DNA of 27,508 nucleotides from a virus. Below the pieces are notes generated by a model. It saw only the letters and a program-made list of their open reading frames with translations, had not been told where the DNA came from and did not search any database. The stretch covers positions 1 through 27,508 of IMG/VR virus record IMGVR_UViG_3300049434_000039, one strand, 5' to 3'. The position numbers and the translations under genes are program-made. How positions within the stretch are numbered: position 1 is the stretch's first letter; every line of letters starts with the position of its first letter. Positions 4,140 through 20,755 of this stretch are shown one piece after another.

Positions 4140-5156
4140 GTGAGCATAGACCAGAAATTAAAGATTGTCGGTGGTGGCCCGCCCTGGGATGAAGACCTGC
4201 GGCAATGGCTCATCAAGCACATGAAAGAACACCAGCATTTGACGACGCTGGTGTTGTCGCGCTCTGACAGCATCGGCGTCTCGCGCACGGCTCTCGATTA
4301 TTACCTCGAAGGAACATATTTTCTGCCGAGGGAGTCAGGCGGGCAGGGCGTCAAGCCCGGCTCATCAAAGATTGAGAAGCAGATTCGCGCCTATCGTGAA
4401 CGCGTGGAGGGCACTGTGCGTCACGGCTATGCGAATACGTTTGTCGAAAGCCGAAGCTGGGTTCAACTTCAGCAGGCATGTGCGACGGCCATCGCTGAAA
4501 ATGTGATCGTTGTCGTTTACGGCAAACCCGGCGTGGGCAAGACGCGCGAGTTGACTGAATACGCGGTCAAGAAAATGACCACATCTCCGGTCATGATTCT
4601 CTGCTCGCCTAACATCACGTCGCGCTACTTCGTTCAGAAGCTTGCGCGCGAGCTTGGTCTCGATGACACACCAGTGACGGCCCGGCTCGAAGACAACATC
4701 GCTGAGAAGCTGAAGAAAAATCCGCGCCCCATCTTCGTTGACCAGGCGAATTTTCTTAACGAGAAATCGCTTGGCTCAATCTGCTATCTCTGGGATAAGG
4801 CGCGGATGCCTGTTGTGCTCGCGGGCACGACTCTTCTCTACGAACGCTTCACGACTTCGACGCTGACCGAAGATGTTCGGGCGCAACTCTCGTCCCGCGT
4901 CGCCATGCACTACCCGCTCGCAGAGCTTTCCATTGCAGAAGTGAAAGCAATCATCAAGCGAGCGTTGGGCGACGAAGCGACGGAAGAGGCGATCTCGCTA
5001 ATCTACAACGTGACGGGCGGCATCCATCGCCACGTTGACATGATCCTGCCCCGCATCAACGAACTCAAACAGCGCAACCGAGACAAATTGGAGCGGGGCG
5101 AAGTGTCATTGCTGGACGTGATTAACGCAGCCGGTCGCAGGCTGATGGCGGGGTGA
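4140..5156 (+). CDS. MuB/TniB-like AAA+ ATPase (transposition target-DNA protein)
   Basis: 338 residues. The N-terminal ~70 form an HTH-like domain (VSRTALDYYLEG), as in phage Mu B. The AAA+ core has Walker A GKPGVGKT (about 128-135), a Walker B-type segment PRPIFVDQANFL (about 195-206), sensor-1-like VVLAGTT and a C-terminal helical domain. In Mu, B binds DNA in an ATP-dependent way, selects the target and activates the MuA transposase. The start is GTG at 4140 with AGGAG eight bases upstream. It is the first gene of the early operon and overlaps the next by GTGA. A MuA-type transposase would normally lie directly upstream, but none is in this window; the partner may lie elsewhere in the genome. 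Confidence 0.85.
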   Translation: MSIDQKLKIVGGGPPWDEDLRQWLIKHMKEHQHLTTLVLSRSDSIGVSRTALDYYLEGTYFLPRESGGQGVKPGSSKIEKQIRAYRERVEGTVRHGYANTFVESRSWVQLQQACATAIAENVIVVVYGKPGVGKTRELTEYAVKKMTTSPVMILCSPNITSRYFVQKLARELGLDDTPVTARLEDNIAEKLKKNPRPIFVDQANFLNEKSLGSICYLWDKARMPVVLAGTTLLYERFTTSTLTEDVRAQLSSRVAMHYPLAELSIAEVKAIIKRALGDEATEEAISLIYNVTGGIHRHVDMILPRINELKQRNRDKLERGEVSLLDVINAAGRRLMAG

Positions 5157-5419
5157 AGCTTATGTCCGAATCAATTAACCAGATACGCCCTGTTGAAGAT
5201 GAAATCAAGGGGATTCGCTTTTACGACCTGGCGAGCAGTAGAGAAATGCTTTTGAGAGTCATGCCGAACTTGGAGCTTTGGCTTCTCTATAAGCATCCGG
5301 GCGGCGATTGGGTTTATCTGCGGCAAGCCACTGACGAAGACCTTCAGCGACTTAGGAAAGTGCTTGAAGAAGCTCAAAAGGCAATTCTCTCGCTATCCGT
5401 AACGCTGGCAAAAGTCTGA
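5153..5419 (+). CDS. Small early phage protein, unknown
   Basis: 88 residues from a GTG that overlaps the MuB-like stop (GTGA); an ATG at 5162 is an alternative start. Mixed alpha/beta composition with a C-terminal helix (DEDLQRLRKVLEEAQKAIL). No motif recognised. It is tightly packed in the early operon, and the next gene starts inside its stop codon (TGATG), which supports it being real. Confidence 0.65.
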   Translation: MKLMSESINQIRPVEDEIKGIRFYDLASSREMLLRVMPNLELWLLYKHPGGDWVYLRQATDEDLQRLRKVLEEAQKAILSLSVTLAKV

Positions 5420-8359: not shown

Positions 8360-9424
8360 ATGTCAGATAAGACAAACATTGAGTGGACTGACGCAACTTG
8401 GAATCCGATACGCGGTTGCTCCGTTGTTTCGGAAGGCTGTCGCAACTGCTATGCGATGCAAGTGGCTGCGAGATTCAGTGGAAAAGATCAGGCTTATGCA
8501 GGGCTGGCTTATCGAAATAGATCAGGCGCGCATTGGACAGGCAAAGCACGACTCATCGAGGAACATCTTGCCGATCCTTTGCGTTGGCAGAAGCCACGCC
8601 GCGTGTTCGTGAACTCAATGAGCGACCTTTTTCACGAGTCAATCAGCAATGAGACTATAGCTTCCATCTTCGCGGTGATGGCTCTTGCCGAGCAGCACAC
8701 CTTTCAGATTTTGACAAAGAGACCGGAACGCATGCTCGATTGGTTTCAATGGGTAGTTAAGTCATGGCCCGAACTGGAGCCAATGCATGAGAGCATCCCG
8801 CCAGATGCGAATGTTGTTCATGTTCATGGCCCGCACAACGATGCGACCTACATAAGTCGCTTGCGTACATGTGAGGATGATTTCGCGGCTGCGTGGCCTC
8901 TTCCAAACGTCTGGCTCGGCGTCTCAGTTGAAGACCAGAAGACCGCAGACAAGCGCATACCCTTATTACTCCAGACTCCTGCTGCTGTTAGATGGATTAG
9001 TGCAGAGCCGTTGCTTGGGGCAATCAATCTTGACAAAGGCTATTACCTGATACCAGGCGTTGGTTGCTTCCCGCTTAAACTAGAGAAGCATTATGTCAAT
9101 GGATTGGGCAATATCGGTGGCCTTGATTGGATAGTAGTCGGGGGTGAGTCAGGTCTAGGCGCACGTCCTATGCATCCAGATTGGGCGCGCGGCCTCAGAG
9201 ATCAATGTGTTGCTGCTGGCATAAAATTCTTTTTCAAACAATGGGGAGGGTTCGTACCGTGTGAATGGGACACGCCAGGCGGAATTATTGCAATGGCTTT
9301 GGATGATATTTCGCTGCTCAACAATGAAGGAATTGCGAAGTATGGTGCGCCCATGAAGCCTATGAACAAGAAAGACGCTGGCCGGATGCTCGATGGCCGG
9401 AAATGGGATGAGTATCCAGAGTGA
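8360..9424 (+). CDS. Phage Gp37/Gp68 family protein (DUF5131)
   Basis: 354 residues. The N-terminus NIEWTDATWNPIRGCS followed by EGCRNCYAM is diagnostic of the Gp37/Gp68 (DUF5131) family; the cysteine pattern C-x7-C-x2-C recalls a radical-SAM-like cluster site. Further family motifs are RVFVNSMSDLFHE, FQILTKRPERM, NVWLGVSVEDQ, RWISAEPLLG and IVVGGESG. The length is normal for the family. The biochemical role is not established; members occur widely in phages and mobile elements. It is the last gene of the early operon, preceding the minus-strand cassette. Confidence 0.85.
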   Translation: MSDKTNIEWTDATWNPIRGCSVVSEGCRNCYAMQVAARFSGKDQAYAGLAYRNRSGAHWTGKARLIEEHLADPLRWQKPRRVFVNSMSDLFHESISNETIASIFAVMALAEQHTFQILTKRPERMLDWFQWVVKSWPELEPMHESIPPDANVVHVHGPHNDATYISRLRTCEDDFAAAWPLPNVWLGVSVEDQKTADKRIPLLLQTPAAVRWISAEPLLGAINLDKGYYLIPGVGCFPLKLEKHYVNGLGNIGGLDWIVVGGESGLGARPMHPDWARGLRDQCVAAGIKFFFKQWGGFVPCEWDTPGGIIAMALDDISLLNNEGIAKYGAPMKPMNKKDAGRMLDGRKWDEYPE

Positions 9425-9628: not shown

Positions 9629-11185
9629 TTAAGCAGGTGAAGTACTATCATCAACTGCTTCTATTTTCTGCCTTTTACTTTGCCTAGATTCTAATATGAC
9701 TTCCTCTACTTTCTTTTCCTCTTCTTTGAGACTTTTTATATAGTCTGCCAACCGCCCATGAGAATAGTCTGAATCAGGCTCCAATTCGATAGCTTTTTTC
9801 AAATAGTCTATAGCTTTTGGGTAGAATCCCTTCTGGCCCAAAATGTTCCCCATGTTCGAAACAATCCAAGACTGTTTCCCTTCCGTTAGACTATTTGCTG
9901 TTTCATAAGCTTCCAGAGAGAGGCCATAAAAATTAAGGTTAAGATAGGCGTTGCCGAGATAGCCAAAGTGATCTGAATTCTTAGGGTTTAGCTTAATGAG
10001 TTTTCTAAAGACTTCTAACGCTGCTTTATTATCACCTTGATCAATAAGAAGAACACCATGACCAAAAAGAAGCTCCTGATTATTCGGGATAGATTTCAAC
10101 CCGGCTTCATACACCTTTTGGGCTTCATCCTTTTTCCCCTGTCCGGTAAGCCATTCAGCTGCCAGAGTGTATGCAGGAGTATATTTTGGCGACTCTCTCA
10201 TCACTTGGTTCAGCAAATTCAAAGCAGTATCTATATCACCGGAATCCTCAATATAACTAGCCTTCATATATTTCAAAGTTTCTGACCTCTCTTTAACTAC
10301 TCCTATTCCGTGATCAAGGATTGCTATCGCTTCATCTAAAAAACCTGCGCTAGAGTAAGTCATGGCGAGTCCCATAAAAGATTCATATCGCTCCGGGTTT
10401 TCGTCTTTAAGTTTTTGGAGATAAGCCAAACCAGCCGCTAAATTCTTTTTCCCCATTGTTTGACCTATCCACATTTTAAGATTTAGAACTTTATCTGGCT
10501 CAGCCGTTTCAACCTTCTTTTCAAGTATAGAGATAGCCTTGTCGTATTCATTATTATTGTAAGCTTCTAGCCATGTACGCTTTTCTTCTTCTATTTTTTG
10601 TTTCCTATCGGTAATCGTGCTTTGAGAGGTTTCACCGACTTCTCCTCGTGAAGCTGACCCAGAATCGGCTTCGATTACTTTTCCGCTGCCTTGTGGGTTT
10701 TGTGGAGAAGCATAGTCATTGTTGGATAGTGATCCAAGTTTATTCATGACTGCTCGGATTTGATGGCAGACTGGCCCTGTCGCTGCCTGATAATTCTTAT
10801 CAAGCCTATCAGCGTCATATTCTCCCGGCGCAACTCCAATAAGGTCTGTAGGCAGATGGAAATCCTTTTCCCCGCGCGGGAGGAGTACGAATGAGCGTTC
10901 TTTACCTAACCGCCCAACAAAGAGACCTAACTCAAAAAGAACATTATCGCGGACTGCTTTATTTTGCTCACCGCGCATGGTGACAATATCGTCAGGAGTA
11001 AAAACGAATATGCCGAAATCTGTTCGGTTTAAGACTTCTATCAAAGAGTCAAGAGCGGAGTTCGAGAGGTGAAAAATCCCCTGCGACCAAACAGTAACTT
11101 CTGCATTAAACTCTAGGTTTTGTTGGACAGCATAAGCGACGCTCAAGCCCTCGACAGATGAACCTATAAACATATTAGATTTCAT
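9629..11185 (-). CDS. TIR-like domain fused to TPR repeats, putative NADase effector
   Basis: 518 residues from the ATG at 11183-11185, chosen because it overlaps the upstream stop as ATGA and has GGGAG before it; a longer start at 11197 is possible. Residues 1-150 match the TIR-like nucleotide-binding family seen in CBASS Cap12 and Pycsar TIR effectors: NMFIGSSVEGL, FGIFVFTPDD, and DNVLFELGLFVGRLG with the expected catalytic Glu. A low-complexity linker (about 150-200) leads to seven or eight TPRs (for example GFLDEAIAILDHG, GDNKAALEVFRKLIKLNPK, GFYPKAIDYLKKAIELEP) and a charged tail. The family is known for NAD+ cleavage in immunity; a defence or exclusion role here is inference. Last gene of a three-gene cassette. 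Confidence 0.75.
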   Translation of the reverse strand: MKSNMFIGSSVEGLSVAYAVQQNLEFNAEVTVWSQGIFHLSNSALDSLIEVLNRTDFGIFVFTPDDIVTMRGEQNKAVRDNVLFELGLFVGRLGKERSFVLLPRGEKDFHLPTDLIGVAPGEYDADRLDKNYQAATGPVCHQIRAVMNKLGSLSNNDYASPQNPQGSGKVIEADSGSASRGEVGETSQSTITDRKQKIEEEKRTWLEAYNNNEYDKAISILEKKVETAEPDKVLNLKMWIGQTMGKKNLAAGLAYLQKLKDENPERYESFMGLAMTYSSAGFLDEAIAILDHGIGVVKERSETLKYMKASYIEDSGDIDTALNLLNQVMRESPKYTPAYTLAAEWLTGQGKKDEAQKVYEAGLKSIPNNQELLFGHGVLLIDQGDNKAALEVFRKLIKLNPKNSDHFGYLGNAYLNLNFYGLSLEAYETANSLTEGKQSWIVSNMGNILGQKGFYPKAIDYLKKAIELEPDSDYSHGRLADYIKSLKEEEKKVEEVILESRQSKRQKIEAVDDSTSPA

Positions 11186-11409
11186 TGCATCTCCCATTGA
11201 TGGCTTCTTTGTCTAAACCGCTCTAGTTCATAAACAACTCTGTAGGGAACCTTGCCGCGCACGAACTTTATCAGATCAGCCCGTTTTATCAGATACTTGC
11301 CCTTCCAAGTAGCCGCCAGCCGCCCCTCTCTGATCGCTTCCTTCAGGTCATGTATTTTCAATCCTGAAAGCGATGAAGCCTCGCATAGCGTTAATTCTGA
11401 TTCGCTCAT
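11182..11409 (-). CDS. Small excisionase/MerR-type HTH protein
   Basis: 75 residues. LTLCEASSLSGLKIHDLKEA followed by IREGRLAATWKGKYLIKRADLIKFV matches the HTH_17/excisionase-type winged helix (EA-x-G...GRL...G-x-x-I-x-x-x-D-L). The start lies six bases after the upstream gene's stop, and its stop overlaps the TIR-TPR start, so it is translationally coupled. It may regulate the cassette or act as a DNA-targeting partner. Confidence 0.65.
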   Translation of the reverse strand: MSESELTLCEASSLSGLKIHDLKEAIREGRLAATWKGKYLIKRADLIKFVRGKVPYRVVYELERFRQRSHQWEMQ

Positions 11410-16949: not shown

Positions 16950-17693
16950 ATGAAACCATACTACGAAGAGAAGAACGTTACGCTCTATCACGGAAGTTTT
17001 GAAGACGTGTTGCCGACGCTCAAACCAAACAGCGTTGACCTGCTGTGCAGTGATCCTCCATACAATAACACTTGCCTCGCGTGGGATAAGGCTGTTGACT
17101 GGCTTTTGTTCTGGGGAATAATAGAGCAGCTTTGCAAAGTCTATGCGACGATGGCGATGTTCAGTTCTGGTCTCTTTGTGCCGCTCCTGCTTAACTCGAA
17201 TCGAAAGCATTACCGTTATGAGTTGATCTGGGAGAAGAATAATCCGACAGGCTTTCTCAGCGCCAAGCGTCGCCCTCTACGTGCACATGAGATGATTCTG
17301 ATCTTTACGCGGAAGCCGAAGGTCAGCATCTATAATCCACAGATGATTACAGGGAAGATTCATAAGCGCGGCAACTCAGGGCCAGGCATGGCCCACTATA
17401 CTACGACCGGCTCCTACCCCGGCATAGTCACGAACAAATACTACCCGCGAAGCATCCTGCGTTTCCCTAACTCTCGCCAGGGCAAATCTCTACATCCGAC
17501 TCAGAAGCCAGTGGATTTAATGATGTGGCTCGTGCGGACGTATTCAAAGCGTGGTCAAATGGTGCTCGATCCATTTATCGGCTCAGGAACTACACTTGTG
17601 GCGGCGAGGAAAACAGGGCGGCGCGCAATTGGTGTCGAGCGTGAAGAGAAGTTTTGTGAGATTGCAGCAAATCGCTTACGGCTGGAGGCTTGA
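16950..17693 (+). CDS. DNA methyltransferase (N6-Ade/N4-Cyt, DPPY type)
   Basis: 247 residues. DLLCSDPPYNNT carries the catalytic DPPY, and VLDPFIGSGTTLVAARKTGR carries the AdoMet-binding FxGxG near the C-terminus. The order DPPY then FxGxG marks the beta class (N6_N4_Mtase). A HPTQKPVDLM motif precedes the AdoMet site, typical of the family. No restriction enzyme gene is adjacent, so it is probably an orphan enzyme protecting phage DNA. It follows the terminase gene by six bases in the same orientation. Confidence 0.9.
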   Translation: MKPYYEEKNVTLYHGSFEDVLPTLKPNSVDLLCSDPPYNNTCLAWDKAVDWLLFWGIIEQLCKVYATMAMFSSGLFVPLLLNSNRKHYRYELIWEKNNPTGFLSAKRRPLRAHEMILIFTRKPKVSIYNPQMITGKIHKRGNSGPGMAHYTTTGSYPGIVTNKYYPRSILRFPNSRQGKSLHPTQKPVDLMMWLVRTYSKRGQMVLDPFIGSGTTLVAARKTGRRAIGVEREEKFCEIAANRLRLEA

Positions 17694-18398: not shown

Positions 18399-19856
18399 AT
18401 GGATTCAACTTCAAAAGAGAGAGACGAGCTTACCGGAGAAATTCTTTCAAGCGAAAGAATGGGCAGTTTCATGTCGTTCGCTTACGGGCTGTCGCAGGGG
18501 ATACCGGATAATCCTTCGTGGATATGGGAGCAACTGCGCTGGAATCCCTGGCTGGCGATGACTGTTTATGACGACCTCGAATTGAAGGACGACATGATTT
18601 CTTCCTCTCTTGAGACACGCAAGGAGAGTGTGCTGTCGAAATCGCGTCGCGTCGCACCGGCCAGTAAAAAGCGCCAGGATACAAAGCTCGCGGAATTCGT
18701 TGACGAATCGTTGGAAGGGTATTTCGACCAAACGGACGGCGTGAGACTTGGCCTTGATAGCTTTTTGTGGGAAGCGATGGATGCTCTGTTCAAAGGCGTT
18801 TCCATCGGCGAGAAGATTTTTGCGGAATCCTCAGATCGAATCTTCATTAAAGAAGTAAAATTCAAACCACAACACCTCTTCACGTTCGGCGAAGGGATGA
18901 TGGCCGCTTATTCGACCAGCACTTATCCTTATCCTCAAACCGGCCCGCTGCGCCTGCGACCCGGAATCTTTGTTGAAGGGTTGAGCAGTGAGAAACCACT
19001 CCCTGAAAAGAAATTCTTTGTCTTCTCATTTCGTCCGAAGCAGGGCAACCGCTGGGGATCGCCCATAGGTCAGAGAGTGTTCTGGCCGAGTTGGTTAAAG
19101 CGAGCTAATACAAAGAACTGGCTACGCTATGGTGAGAAAGGCGCGGGCACTGCAAAGACAACTTATAAAGGTGGAGCTACAGAGAGGGAGCAACAAATTG
19201 CGCTCGAAGCTGCTCGCGCAATCGTAGAAGAGAATGCTGTAGCGGTGTCGGATGGTATTCAAGCTGAAATCCTGAATGTACGCGGAGGCATGGGTTCAGT
19301 TTTTCAAGCTCTGTCGGACGACTTTTGCAACAACGGAATAGCGCGCGTGATCCTGGGACAAACGCTGACCAGTCGCGGCAGCGAGGGGGGCGGTTCACGC
19401 GCGCTTGGCGAGGTTCACGAGCGAGTTGCAGGGCGTAAAACTGAGGTTGATGCAAAGGGCTTGATGCTGGCCGTCAACACGCAGATCGTCTGGCCGCTCG
19501 TGCTTTTGAACAAAGGGCCGGTCGAACAGCCGCCCGTTTGGACGATTGATTATGAGCCTGGTAATGACCTCAACGAGATGTCAGCCTGGCTTCAACGTCT
19601 CTGGCAGATGCATGTGCCAATTCCGACCGCATTCGTCTATAACAATTTTCAGGTAAATGAGCCTGGCGAAGATGAAGAAGTCTTGCCACCACCCTCTAAG
19701 GATCAGGAAGACTTAAGCCCAAGTGCAGCCGGATTCTCCGAGGGTCAAAAAAAAAAGCCCGGAGCGTCGAGCGGAAGATTGAACAGGCAGTCGAACTCGA
19801 AGATGGCGCGCTTTCAAAGGCTGCGCCCCTCTACGATGAATGGCTCGGCGAGATAA
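18399..19856 (+). CDS. Portal protein (Mu gp29-like, DUF935)
   Basis: 485 residues in the zero frame. DUF935-type features include WEQLRWNPWLAMTVYDDLEL, DDMISSSLETRKESVL, FVFSFRPKQGNRWGSP, GLMLAVNTQIVWPLV and WTIDYEPGNDLNEMSAWL. The portal forms the dodecameric DNA gateway of the head. The zero-frame C-terminus after residue ~453 is low-complexity and basic and does not look like family sequence. The -1 frame from 19757 instead gives the helical C-terminal region expected (QAVELEDGALSKAAPLYDEW). There is no clear ribosome site before the ATG. See the frameshift entry at 19740-19757. Confidence 0.85.
   Translation: MDSTSKERDELTGEILSSERMGSFMSFAYGLSQGIPDNPSWIWEQLRWNPWLAMTVYDDLELKDDMISSSLETRKESVLSKSRRVAPASKKRQDTKLAEFVDESLEGYFDQTDGVRLGLDSFLWEAMDALFKGVSIGEKIFAESSDRIFIKEVKFKPQHLFTFGEGMMAAYSTSTYPYPQTGPLRLRPGIFVEGLSSEKPLPEKKFFVFSFRPKQGNRWGSPIGQRVFWPSWLKRANTKNWLRYGEKGAGTAKTTYKGGATEREQQIALEAARAIVEENAVAVSDGIQAEILNVRGGMGSVFQALSDDFCNNGIARVILGQTLTSRGSEGGGSRALGEVHERVAGRKTEVDAKGLMLAVNTQIVWPLVLLNKGPVEQPPVWTIDYEPGNDLNEMSAWLQRLWQMHVPIPTAFVYNNFQVNEPGEDEEVLPPPSKDQEDLSPSAAGFSEGQKKKPGASSGRLNRQSNSKMARFQRLRPSTMNGSAR
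19740..19757 (+). other. Candidate programmed -1 ribosomal frameshift site
   Basis: Ten A's (19747-19756) followed by G. In the portal frame the codons are AAA (19752-19754) and AAG (19755-19757), so A AAA AAG at 19751-19757 is the dnaX-type slippery heptamer in register. GAGGG at 19740-19744, six bases upstream, resembles the stimulatory Shine-Dalgarno of dnaX. A -1 slip enters a frame open to 20755 and would give a portal-F fusion of about 785 residues. A miscounted homopolymer (11 A's in truth) would also fuse the frames. Confidence 0.6.
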
Positions 19857-19891
19857 TCACGGAACTTGAAAAGTTCAATGATCTGGCAAAA

Positions 19892-20755
19892 GTGCCAGCG
19901 ATGTTCTTTGAAATAAAATTTACAGGCCAGTTTGACGCAATCGCGCTAGTGCTCGGCGATGCTCTGCTCGCTTCATATTTGCTTGCGCTTGACCAGGTGA
20001 GCGGAGAAATTCAGAGCGGTGAGTTTGCCGAAGGCGATGATGAATTGTTCAACTTCGATCTGCCGCCAGAGGAAGCGATTAAATATTTCCGGGATAAGCG
20101 CGTAGTCACAAGCAAAAAGTTTAATGACCTCAGAGAAGAAGCGCGGTCAGCAGCTTTCACAGTCGGCGGCATCTATGAACAAGAAGTGCTCGAAGGCTTC
20201 AAGGAAGAGATCGCCCGTTCGCTCGAAGAGGGCATACCACAGCGCGAGACTATCAAGCGGTTTCGTGAAATCCTCGACGGCGCGGGACATAAGCAACTCG
20301 GCGCGTTTCACCTGGAGACAATATTCAGGACGAACATGCAAATGGCTTACGGCGTAGGCCGTCGCCAGGCGCTTGAAGGCGTCGCGGATGATTTATCACT
20401 TTGGGAATACCACGCGGTACTCGATGACCGCACACGACCAACACATGCCGCTCTCGATGGTTTGATTCTTCCTGCCACTCACGAATTTTGGAACGACCAT
20501 TATCCGCCCTGGGGATTCAATTGCAGATGCACCGTCACGGCGAGGCCGACGATGCCGGATAGTTATGACCATTCAAATCCGTCCGGTTCGGCTGAGATTG
20601 CCTATGACAAAAAGGGCAACCCGGCGAAGGCTGAGGTCGGGACTTCAGTCGTTGATCTGAACGTCGGAAAGTTCAAAGGAGTGCCGCCACAGGGCGGGTT
20701 AAAGAGTACCATCGAAGATGCGGTAGGGCGGGCGAAAGCGAGTAGAAAGAAGTGA
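19892..20755 (+). CDS. Phage head morphogenesis protein (Mu gpF-like)
   Basis: 287 residues from ATG 19892, but the same frame is open upstream to at least 19757 and the ATG has no ribosome binding site. The F domain runs from NFDLPPEEAIKYFRDKRVVT through EEARSAAFTVGG to the C-terminal signature (TIFRTNMQMAYGVGRRQALE, LDDRTRPTHAALDG, PPWGFNCRCTVTARP), shared with SPP1 gp7. The first ~50 residues (FDAIALVLGDALLASYLLAL) instead match the C-terminal helices of DUF935 portals. So the portal end and F are joined in this frame, most simply by frameshifting from the portal gene. F-type proteins act in capsid assembly and enter the head in small numbers. Confidence 0.85.
   Translation: MPAMFFEIKFTGQFDAIALVLGDALLASYLLALDQVSGEIQSGEFAEGDDELFNFDLPPEEAIKYFRDKRVVTSKKFNDLREEARSAAFTVGGIYEQEVLEGFKEEIARSLEEGIPQRETIKRFREILDGAGHKQLGAFHLETIFRTNMQMAYGVGRRQALEGVADDLSLWEYHAVLDDRTRPTHAALDGLILPATHEFWNDHYPPWGFNCRCTVTARPTMPDSYDHSNPSGSAEIAYDKKGNPAKAEVGTSVVDLNVGKFKGVPPQGGLKSTIEDAVGRAKASRKK

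Follow-up and report, generated by a model that had tools for sequence, protein, structure and literature searches.

A conserved run of nine or ten A's as a probable recoding site between portal and F protein in two lineages of Mu-like phages

The dnaX gene of Thermus thermophilus contains an A9 run at which transcriptional slippage gives rise to tau and gamma, i.e. to short and long forms of one gene (PMC1088944, PMC5009743), with about half of the product made via slippage at such a run (PMC5009743). In vivo, slippage is efficient at nine A's, and the transcription hybrid measures 9-10 bp (PMC5009743); selection against slippage appears at a run length of nine in many bacterial genomes (PMC1088944), and A9 is a common bacterial threshold for transcriptional slippage (PMC1088944; PMC5009743). 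Recoding in phage structural genes (tail chaperones, coat extensions) is well known; no account of portal-F recoding was found in the open-access papers searched, apart from the annotation of the RcapMu record, and no experimental work on these phages turned up. Portal rings are usually regarded as twelve identical subunits, and the placement of just one or two F/gp7 proteins at the portal is an unsettled question.

The DNA analysed here, referred to as the window, is a stretch of 27.5 kb from an IMG/VR virus record. It carries an A10 tract near the end of its portal gene, and related loci carry A9 or A10 at the same junction. We consider it probable (about 0.74) that this run is a functional recoding site in two Mu-like lineages, at which RNA polymerase, or less likely the ribosome, slips to yield a short portal and a portal-F protein.

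Portal and F reading frames in the window

The phage is Mu-like, as Pfam searches of the window identified a Mu-type portal, Phage_Mu_F, a capsid-E type major capsid protein and a tail morphogenesis gene. The portal match lies in the 0 frame (Portal_Mu, PF06074; 227 bits, E 5e-67; curated cut-off 23.9) and the F match in the -1 frame (Phage_Mu_F, PF04233; 68.4 bits, E 1e-18; curated cut-off 29.6), both above cut-off. The features of the locus are as follows.

18399-19856, + strand: portal gene, Mu gp29-like (Portal_Mu), ATG start, 0-frame product of 485 aa
19740-19744, + strand: GAGGG, Shine-Dalgarno-like, not conserved in relatives and probably incidental
19747-19756, + strand: A10 tract, candidate slippage site, with 0-frame codons GGT CAA AAA AAA AAG CCC
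19751-19757, + strand: heptamer A AAA AAG, in the register of the portal 0 frame
19757-20048, + strand: segment of ~97 aa in the -1 frame, a homologue of the helical domain with which canonical Mu-like portals end (profile comparison, codon-position constraint)
19757-20755, + strand: -1-frame ORF past the A10 tract, comprising the portal C-terminal domain and F (Phage_Mu_F)
19854-19856, + strand: TAA that ends the short portal in the 0 frame, 32 codons past the A10 tract
19892-19903, + strand: first candidate F starts in the -1 frame, GTG at 19892 and ATG at 19901, without ribosome-binding site and at a position that varies among relatives

The 0-frame product consists of the portal core, which matches the solved portals of Mu and JBD30, and of 32 non-conserved residues past the A10 tract. 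The open stretch of the -1 frame extends from 19700 to 20752, with the F domain inside it, and the predicted portal-F fusion would comprise about 784 aa. The initial annotation had read the heptamer as lying in the correct register, the -1 frame as continuing the portal and then the whole F domain, and the zero-frame tail as noise; all three points were confirmed, the second through profile comparison for the C-terminal domain and Pfam for F, the third by the lack of coding constraint on the tail.

Other genes predicted in the window include one for an N6/N4 DNA methylase (16950-17693, +) located between a probable terminase gene and the portal gene; a DNA methyltransferase gene likewise lies between terminase and portal in Mushu. 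A DUF5131 (phage Gp37/Gp68-like) protein is encoded at 8360-9424 (+; E 3e-96), and the product of 9629-11197 (-) combines a CAP12/Pycsar-type TIR domain at its N-terminus with TPR repeats further on and matches PADLOC TIR effector models; by its domains, the phage may carry here a gene for defence or exclusion.

The canonical Mu-like arrangement, i.e. C-terminal domain in the portal frame and F separate, was not found in the window, where the domain lies in the -1 frame and is joined to F. In Mu, Mushu, B3, HS6, SuMu, the Meiothermus and Thermus phages and a Helicobacter prophage, the C-terminal helical domain is encoded in the portal's own frame, F starts separately, and the junction is free of long A runs. 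Profile comparison (hhalign) of the ~97 residues that open the -1 frame past the run with the canonical portal C-termini gave P 84.5 (Blastocatellia) and 97.8 (RcapMu-like); the segment thus corresponds to the portal C-terminal domain, which places the run in the linker that connects this domain to the portal core. The modelled chain of the solved portals is shorter than the protein (405 of 526 residues in JBD30; 369-383 of 512 in Mu), so that the ordered part of the ring is the core, and the unmodelled part presumably represents this C-terminal domain. In an AlphaFold2 model of the fusion of locus L031, of low confidence (mean pLDDT 58), the portal core was recognisable and the segment past the run was predicted to be helical.

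The A10 tract is the sole A/T run of eight or more in the window, for which a first-order model predicts about 0.6 runs of at least nine. For 54 related loci (402,866 bp; median G+C 61%) the same type of model predicts 4.4 A/T runs of at least nine anywhere, and all 52 such runs observed are at the junction; the junction runs are far above chance, relatives included. Lysine codons elsewhere in the portal and F genes favour AAG over AAA by 1681:781, and the few other KKK tripeptides in these genes are AAG-rich.

The A run in related loci

Comparison with related phages, as proposed in the initial annotation, yielded 71 loci with at least eight A's at the portal-F junction (61 A9, 8 A10, 2 A8), which share ancestry and include near-copies and so do not represent 71 independent observations. 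F is offset by -1 in 54 of these loci and in frame with the portal in 13; the remaining four were unusable for the frame question, i.e. L003 (A10 kept, but F displaced and in pieces, hence counted in neither state), L077 (A8, with F in the +1 frame), and L076 and L093 (sequence ends too early). The run-bearing loci belong to two lineages, one from Blastocatellia (Acidobacteriota) and one comprising RcapMu-like phages of Rhodobacter and Rhizobium.

The Blastocatellia-type relatives were found with the portal and F of the window as queries in IMG/VR and in three Blastocatellia metagenome-assembled genomes (MAGs), at 44-80% protein identity. The Acidobacteriota set comprises ten loci, including the window, with A9 or A10 at the same place and F in the -1 frame, and L003 as an eleventh run locus with its A10 and displaced F; in L031, from a Pyrinomonadaceae MAG, portal and F share one frame with an A10 run, and L012 has neither run nor F. 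This portal was present in three of the 162 Blastocatellia genomes searched. A first scan of genome contigs for relatives gave no match, nor did a search of viral contigs with the L031 portal.

RcapMu is an inducible Rhodobacter phage whose short portal ends CAA AAA AAA GCC TGA (A8), with the missing portal domain and F in the -1 frame; its GenBank annotation states that a 'possible +1 frameshift would allow readthrough' and describes F as being without a good ribosome-binding site. A scan with the RcapMu portal returned 80 loci, and A9 is present in the sequenced phage records RcWaterboi, RR1-B and EBPR siphovirus 4. The RcapMu-like lineage comprises 44 offset loci, most commonly with CTC AAA AAA AAA NNN TGA or GTA AAA AAA AAC, and 12 loci with one continuous ORF and A9 in frame (e.g. 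CCT AAA AAA AAA CTC); L102, L103 and L112 are in-frame fusions. Five relatives (L117, L119, L120, L121 and L140) have no run, and encode a short portal and a separate gene for C-terminal domain and F, with an ATGA/GTGA overlap or similar at the portal stop. Judged by sequence, these five have the same protein in a naturally split form, and the fusion is therefore not obligatory. Same-frame separate genes without a run were found in L135, L141 and L142.

Several loci have further peculiarities. The RcapMu record (L064) annotates another 'potential -1 frameshift' at position 2261, in a small gene that directly precedes the portal. In L032 the portal core is split over two frames upstream of the junction (5064-5170), possibly through an error in the MAG assembly, and the F frame of L015 (4624-7803) is enlarged by about 290 in-frame residues, which are inserted into the F domain at a conserved site and have a weak intein-splicing match. 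On the contig of L003 and L157-L158 (16400-37500), F lies in displaced, partly permuted pieces kilobases off the portal, in the vicinity of HTH/LAGLIDADG-like genes and two tail-gene copies, which indicates rearrangement or misassembly. The F frames of L009, L013 and L032 run well past the F domain (about 490-540 aa), perhaps as variable C-terminal domains like those of MuF proteins.

Over the first 32 codons past the run, the differences per codon position in the -1 frame were 0.26/0.18/0.43 among 42 distinct RcapMu-like sequences and 0.35/0.30/0.49 among nine Blastocatellia sequences, which is the pattern of a coding -1 frame under constraint. A conserved independent F start was sought in the run-bearing loci and none was found; the first ATG, GTG or TTG of the -1 frame lies 20-133 codons downstream of the run, at a position that is not conserved, with the exception of L116 (GTG at codon 4). 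At the level of sequence, conservation of the run, of both frames and of coding in the -1 frame, without an independent start of F, is demonstrated.

The 13 in-frame loci retain the A9/A10 run, and a -1 slip in these meets a stop within 1-9 codons, for most of these ORFs a shorter distance than is typical; in the RcapMu-like offset loci, the 0-frame stop lies 1-7 codons past the run. Retention of the run together with the close -1 stop implies that the run persists under either default product, a situation also seen in dnaX, and from these sequences both the short and the long product seem to be wanted. Both refuting conditions named in the initial annotation, one continuous gene and relatives without a slippery site, were checked. 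The run is present in relatives; some of these have one continuous gene (L031, L100 and others), yet they keep the A run with a nearby -1 stop, and the case is strengthened by them.

A quick portal tree, with long branches, indicated at least six exchanges between the offset and the in-frame state. The members of the close pairs L103/L104 and L095/L097 differ in frame via indels outside the run, which is exactly A9 in both members. The Blastocatellia and RcapMu-like clades each had a support of 100, and the canonical phages branch between them; hence, there were either two gains of the run or repeated losses. Judging from the in-frame lineages, a higher share of the fusion seems to be tolerated.

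Slippage mechanism and alternative explanations

Run length is A9-A10 in 69 of the 71 loci, while the run varies in register and in the nucleotides that follow it. The loci have a conserved coding run of at least nine A/T, and a long conserved protein in one frame with a close stop in another, which are the criteria for transcriptional slippage taken from the Thermus dnaX class, with Shigella mxiE as a further gene of this class; RcapMu, with only A8, is below the A9 length. The alternative that deserves most attention is programmed -1 ribosomal frameshifting at A AAA AAG or A AAA AAA, as in E. coli dnaX, with RNA polymerase slippage as a secondary contribution. One of these heptamers is in register in nearly every case, and the 0-frame stop close past the run in RcapMu-like offset loci can favour -1 shifts. 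A ribosomal slippery heptamer requires 7 nt only; A7-A8 would thus suffice, yet the run is held at nine or ten. Furthermore, Shine-Dalgarno-like tetramers just upstream of the run are depleted (4 of 63 loci, against 7-22 of 63 at control positions), and the GAGGG noted in the initial annotation, though present in the window, is not kept in relatives. No common downstream structure was detected either: the 60 nt past the run in the window fold no better than shuffles (z +0.3), the mean z across 62 loci was -0.73 versus -0.23 for a control region, with z < -3 in some members only, and a search of Rfam gave no match.

The lack of the E. coli dnaX signals, together with a length held at 9-10, favours RNA polymerase slippage, which we would place over ribosomal slippage at about two to one; ribosomal frameshifting as the main source of the fusion appears unlikely. 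The dnaX-type frameshift proposed in the initial annotation is retained as a conserved site, probably of recoding, that joins the portal to its C-terminal domain and F, whereas the mechanism of E. coli dnaX is unsupported. Mechanism, product ratio and virion role are inferred.

It is very unlikely that F is a separate gene, translated from a start of its own or through reinitiation past the short-portal stop, with no fusion made. Canonical Mu-like phages do have separate genes, and the five split relatives use the overlapping start described above; the run loci, however, are without a start near the 0-frame stop, and their first start codons (except in L116) are inside conserved sequence. For the window, the initial annotation had placed the F start at an 'ATG' at 19892 within the portal C-terminus; this codon is a GTG (the ATG is at 19901), and it does lack a recognisable ribosome-binding site and sits 45 codons into conserved sequence. 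A separate F would also leave the A9 run, and its retention in in-frame loci, unexplained.

Phase variation, i.e. replication slippage at the run that toggles expression of F or of the fusion between phage generations, has only a slight chance: A9-A10 runs are mutable in replication, and the A8 locus L077 has its F in +1, but run length is nearly constant and the frame changes between relatives occur via flanking indels.

That the offset is an error of assembly or sequencing, or a frameshift by which one phage has recently inactivated the gene, with portal and F simply one gene (11 A's) or a decaying one, is a negligible prospect and was rejected for the group. Homopolymers are prone to errors and in-frame relatives are known, but 54 loci, phage records among them, share this offset at 50-60% protein divergence and with the 0-frame stop close, the in-frame relatives differ through indels outside a retained A9, and the -1 frame is still under coding constraint.

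Proposed products and comparison with known systems

With RNA polymerase slippage as the preferred reading, one gene would give rise to two proteins with a common portal core: a short portal, for which translation would end soon after the run, and a long product in which the portal C-terminal domain would be fused to F, the minor head protein. The portal ring has 12 subunits, and short portal and portal-F might co-assemble in it, which would tether a few F domains inside the head. A bolder proposal, to which we give somewhat less than even chances, is that of a mixed portal ring with two isoforms made by RNA polymerase slippage, in which the slippage rate of the host would set the number of F domains (pilot-like) inside the head at the DNA gate, and in which lineages would repeatedly switch the default isoform and keep A9/A10. 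Were portal and portal-F both made from one gene through a slippage site, their ratio would be set genetically and the symmetry of the portal broken, and a two-frame logic kept through repeated exchange of the default would be a clean natural case to separate transcriptional from ribosomal slippage. A practical effect is that portal and F are split or truncated by gene callers, e.g. in the RcapMu and RR1-B records.

Among described recoding genes, E. coli dnaX resembles the window in its A AAA AAG heptamer in register, but the portal loci are without a conserved Shine-Dalgarno-like stimulator or downstream stem-loop, and their run is lengthened to 9-10. The tail chaperone G/GT frameshift of lambda, Mu and many phages is likewise recoding of a morphogenesis gene, with a short and a C-terminally extended protein (PMC5009743, PMC2628397); the gene here is portal-F, the signal is another one, and the products are components of the head vertex. 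Lactobacillus phage A2, Listeria PSA and gp10 of T3/T7 provide capsid or tail proteins with a minor frameshift-extended form in the virion (PMC5009743), but no portal was found among such extended proteins in the open-access papers searched. Phage Mu (gp29/gp30(F)) and SPP1 (gp6/gp7) also have a portal followed by an F-like minor head protein; in Mu and other canonical phages, unlike here, these are separate genes with their own starts, and the C-terminal domain is in the portal frame.

The Thermus thermophilus dnaX gene shares with the portal-F loci, besides the A9 run and the two forms of one product, the other-frame stops near the run, a long form that adds C-terminal domains, and subunits of a ring-like assembly. 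It differs in that the product there is a polymerase clamp loader and here a phage portal with F, for which slippage is predicted, and in that most of the portal loci need a slip for the long form.
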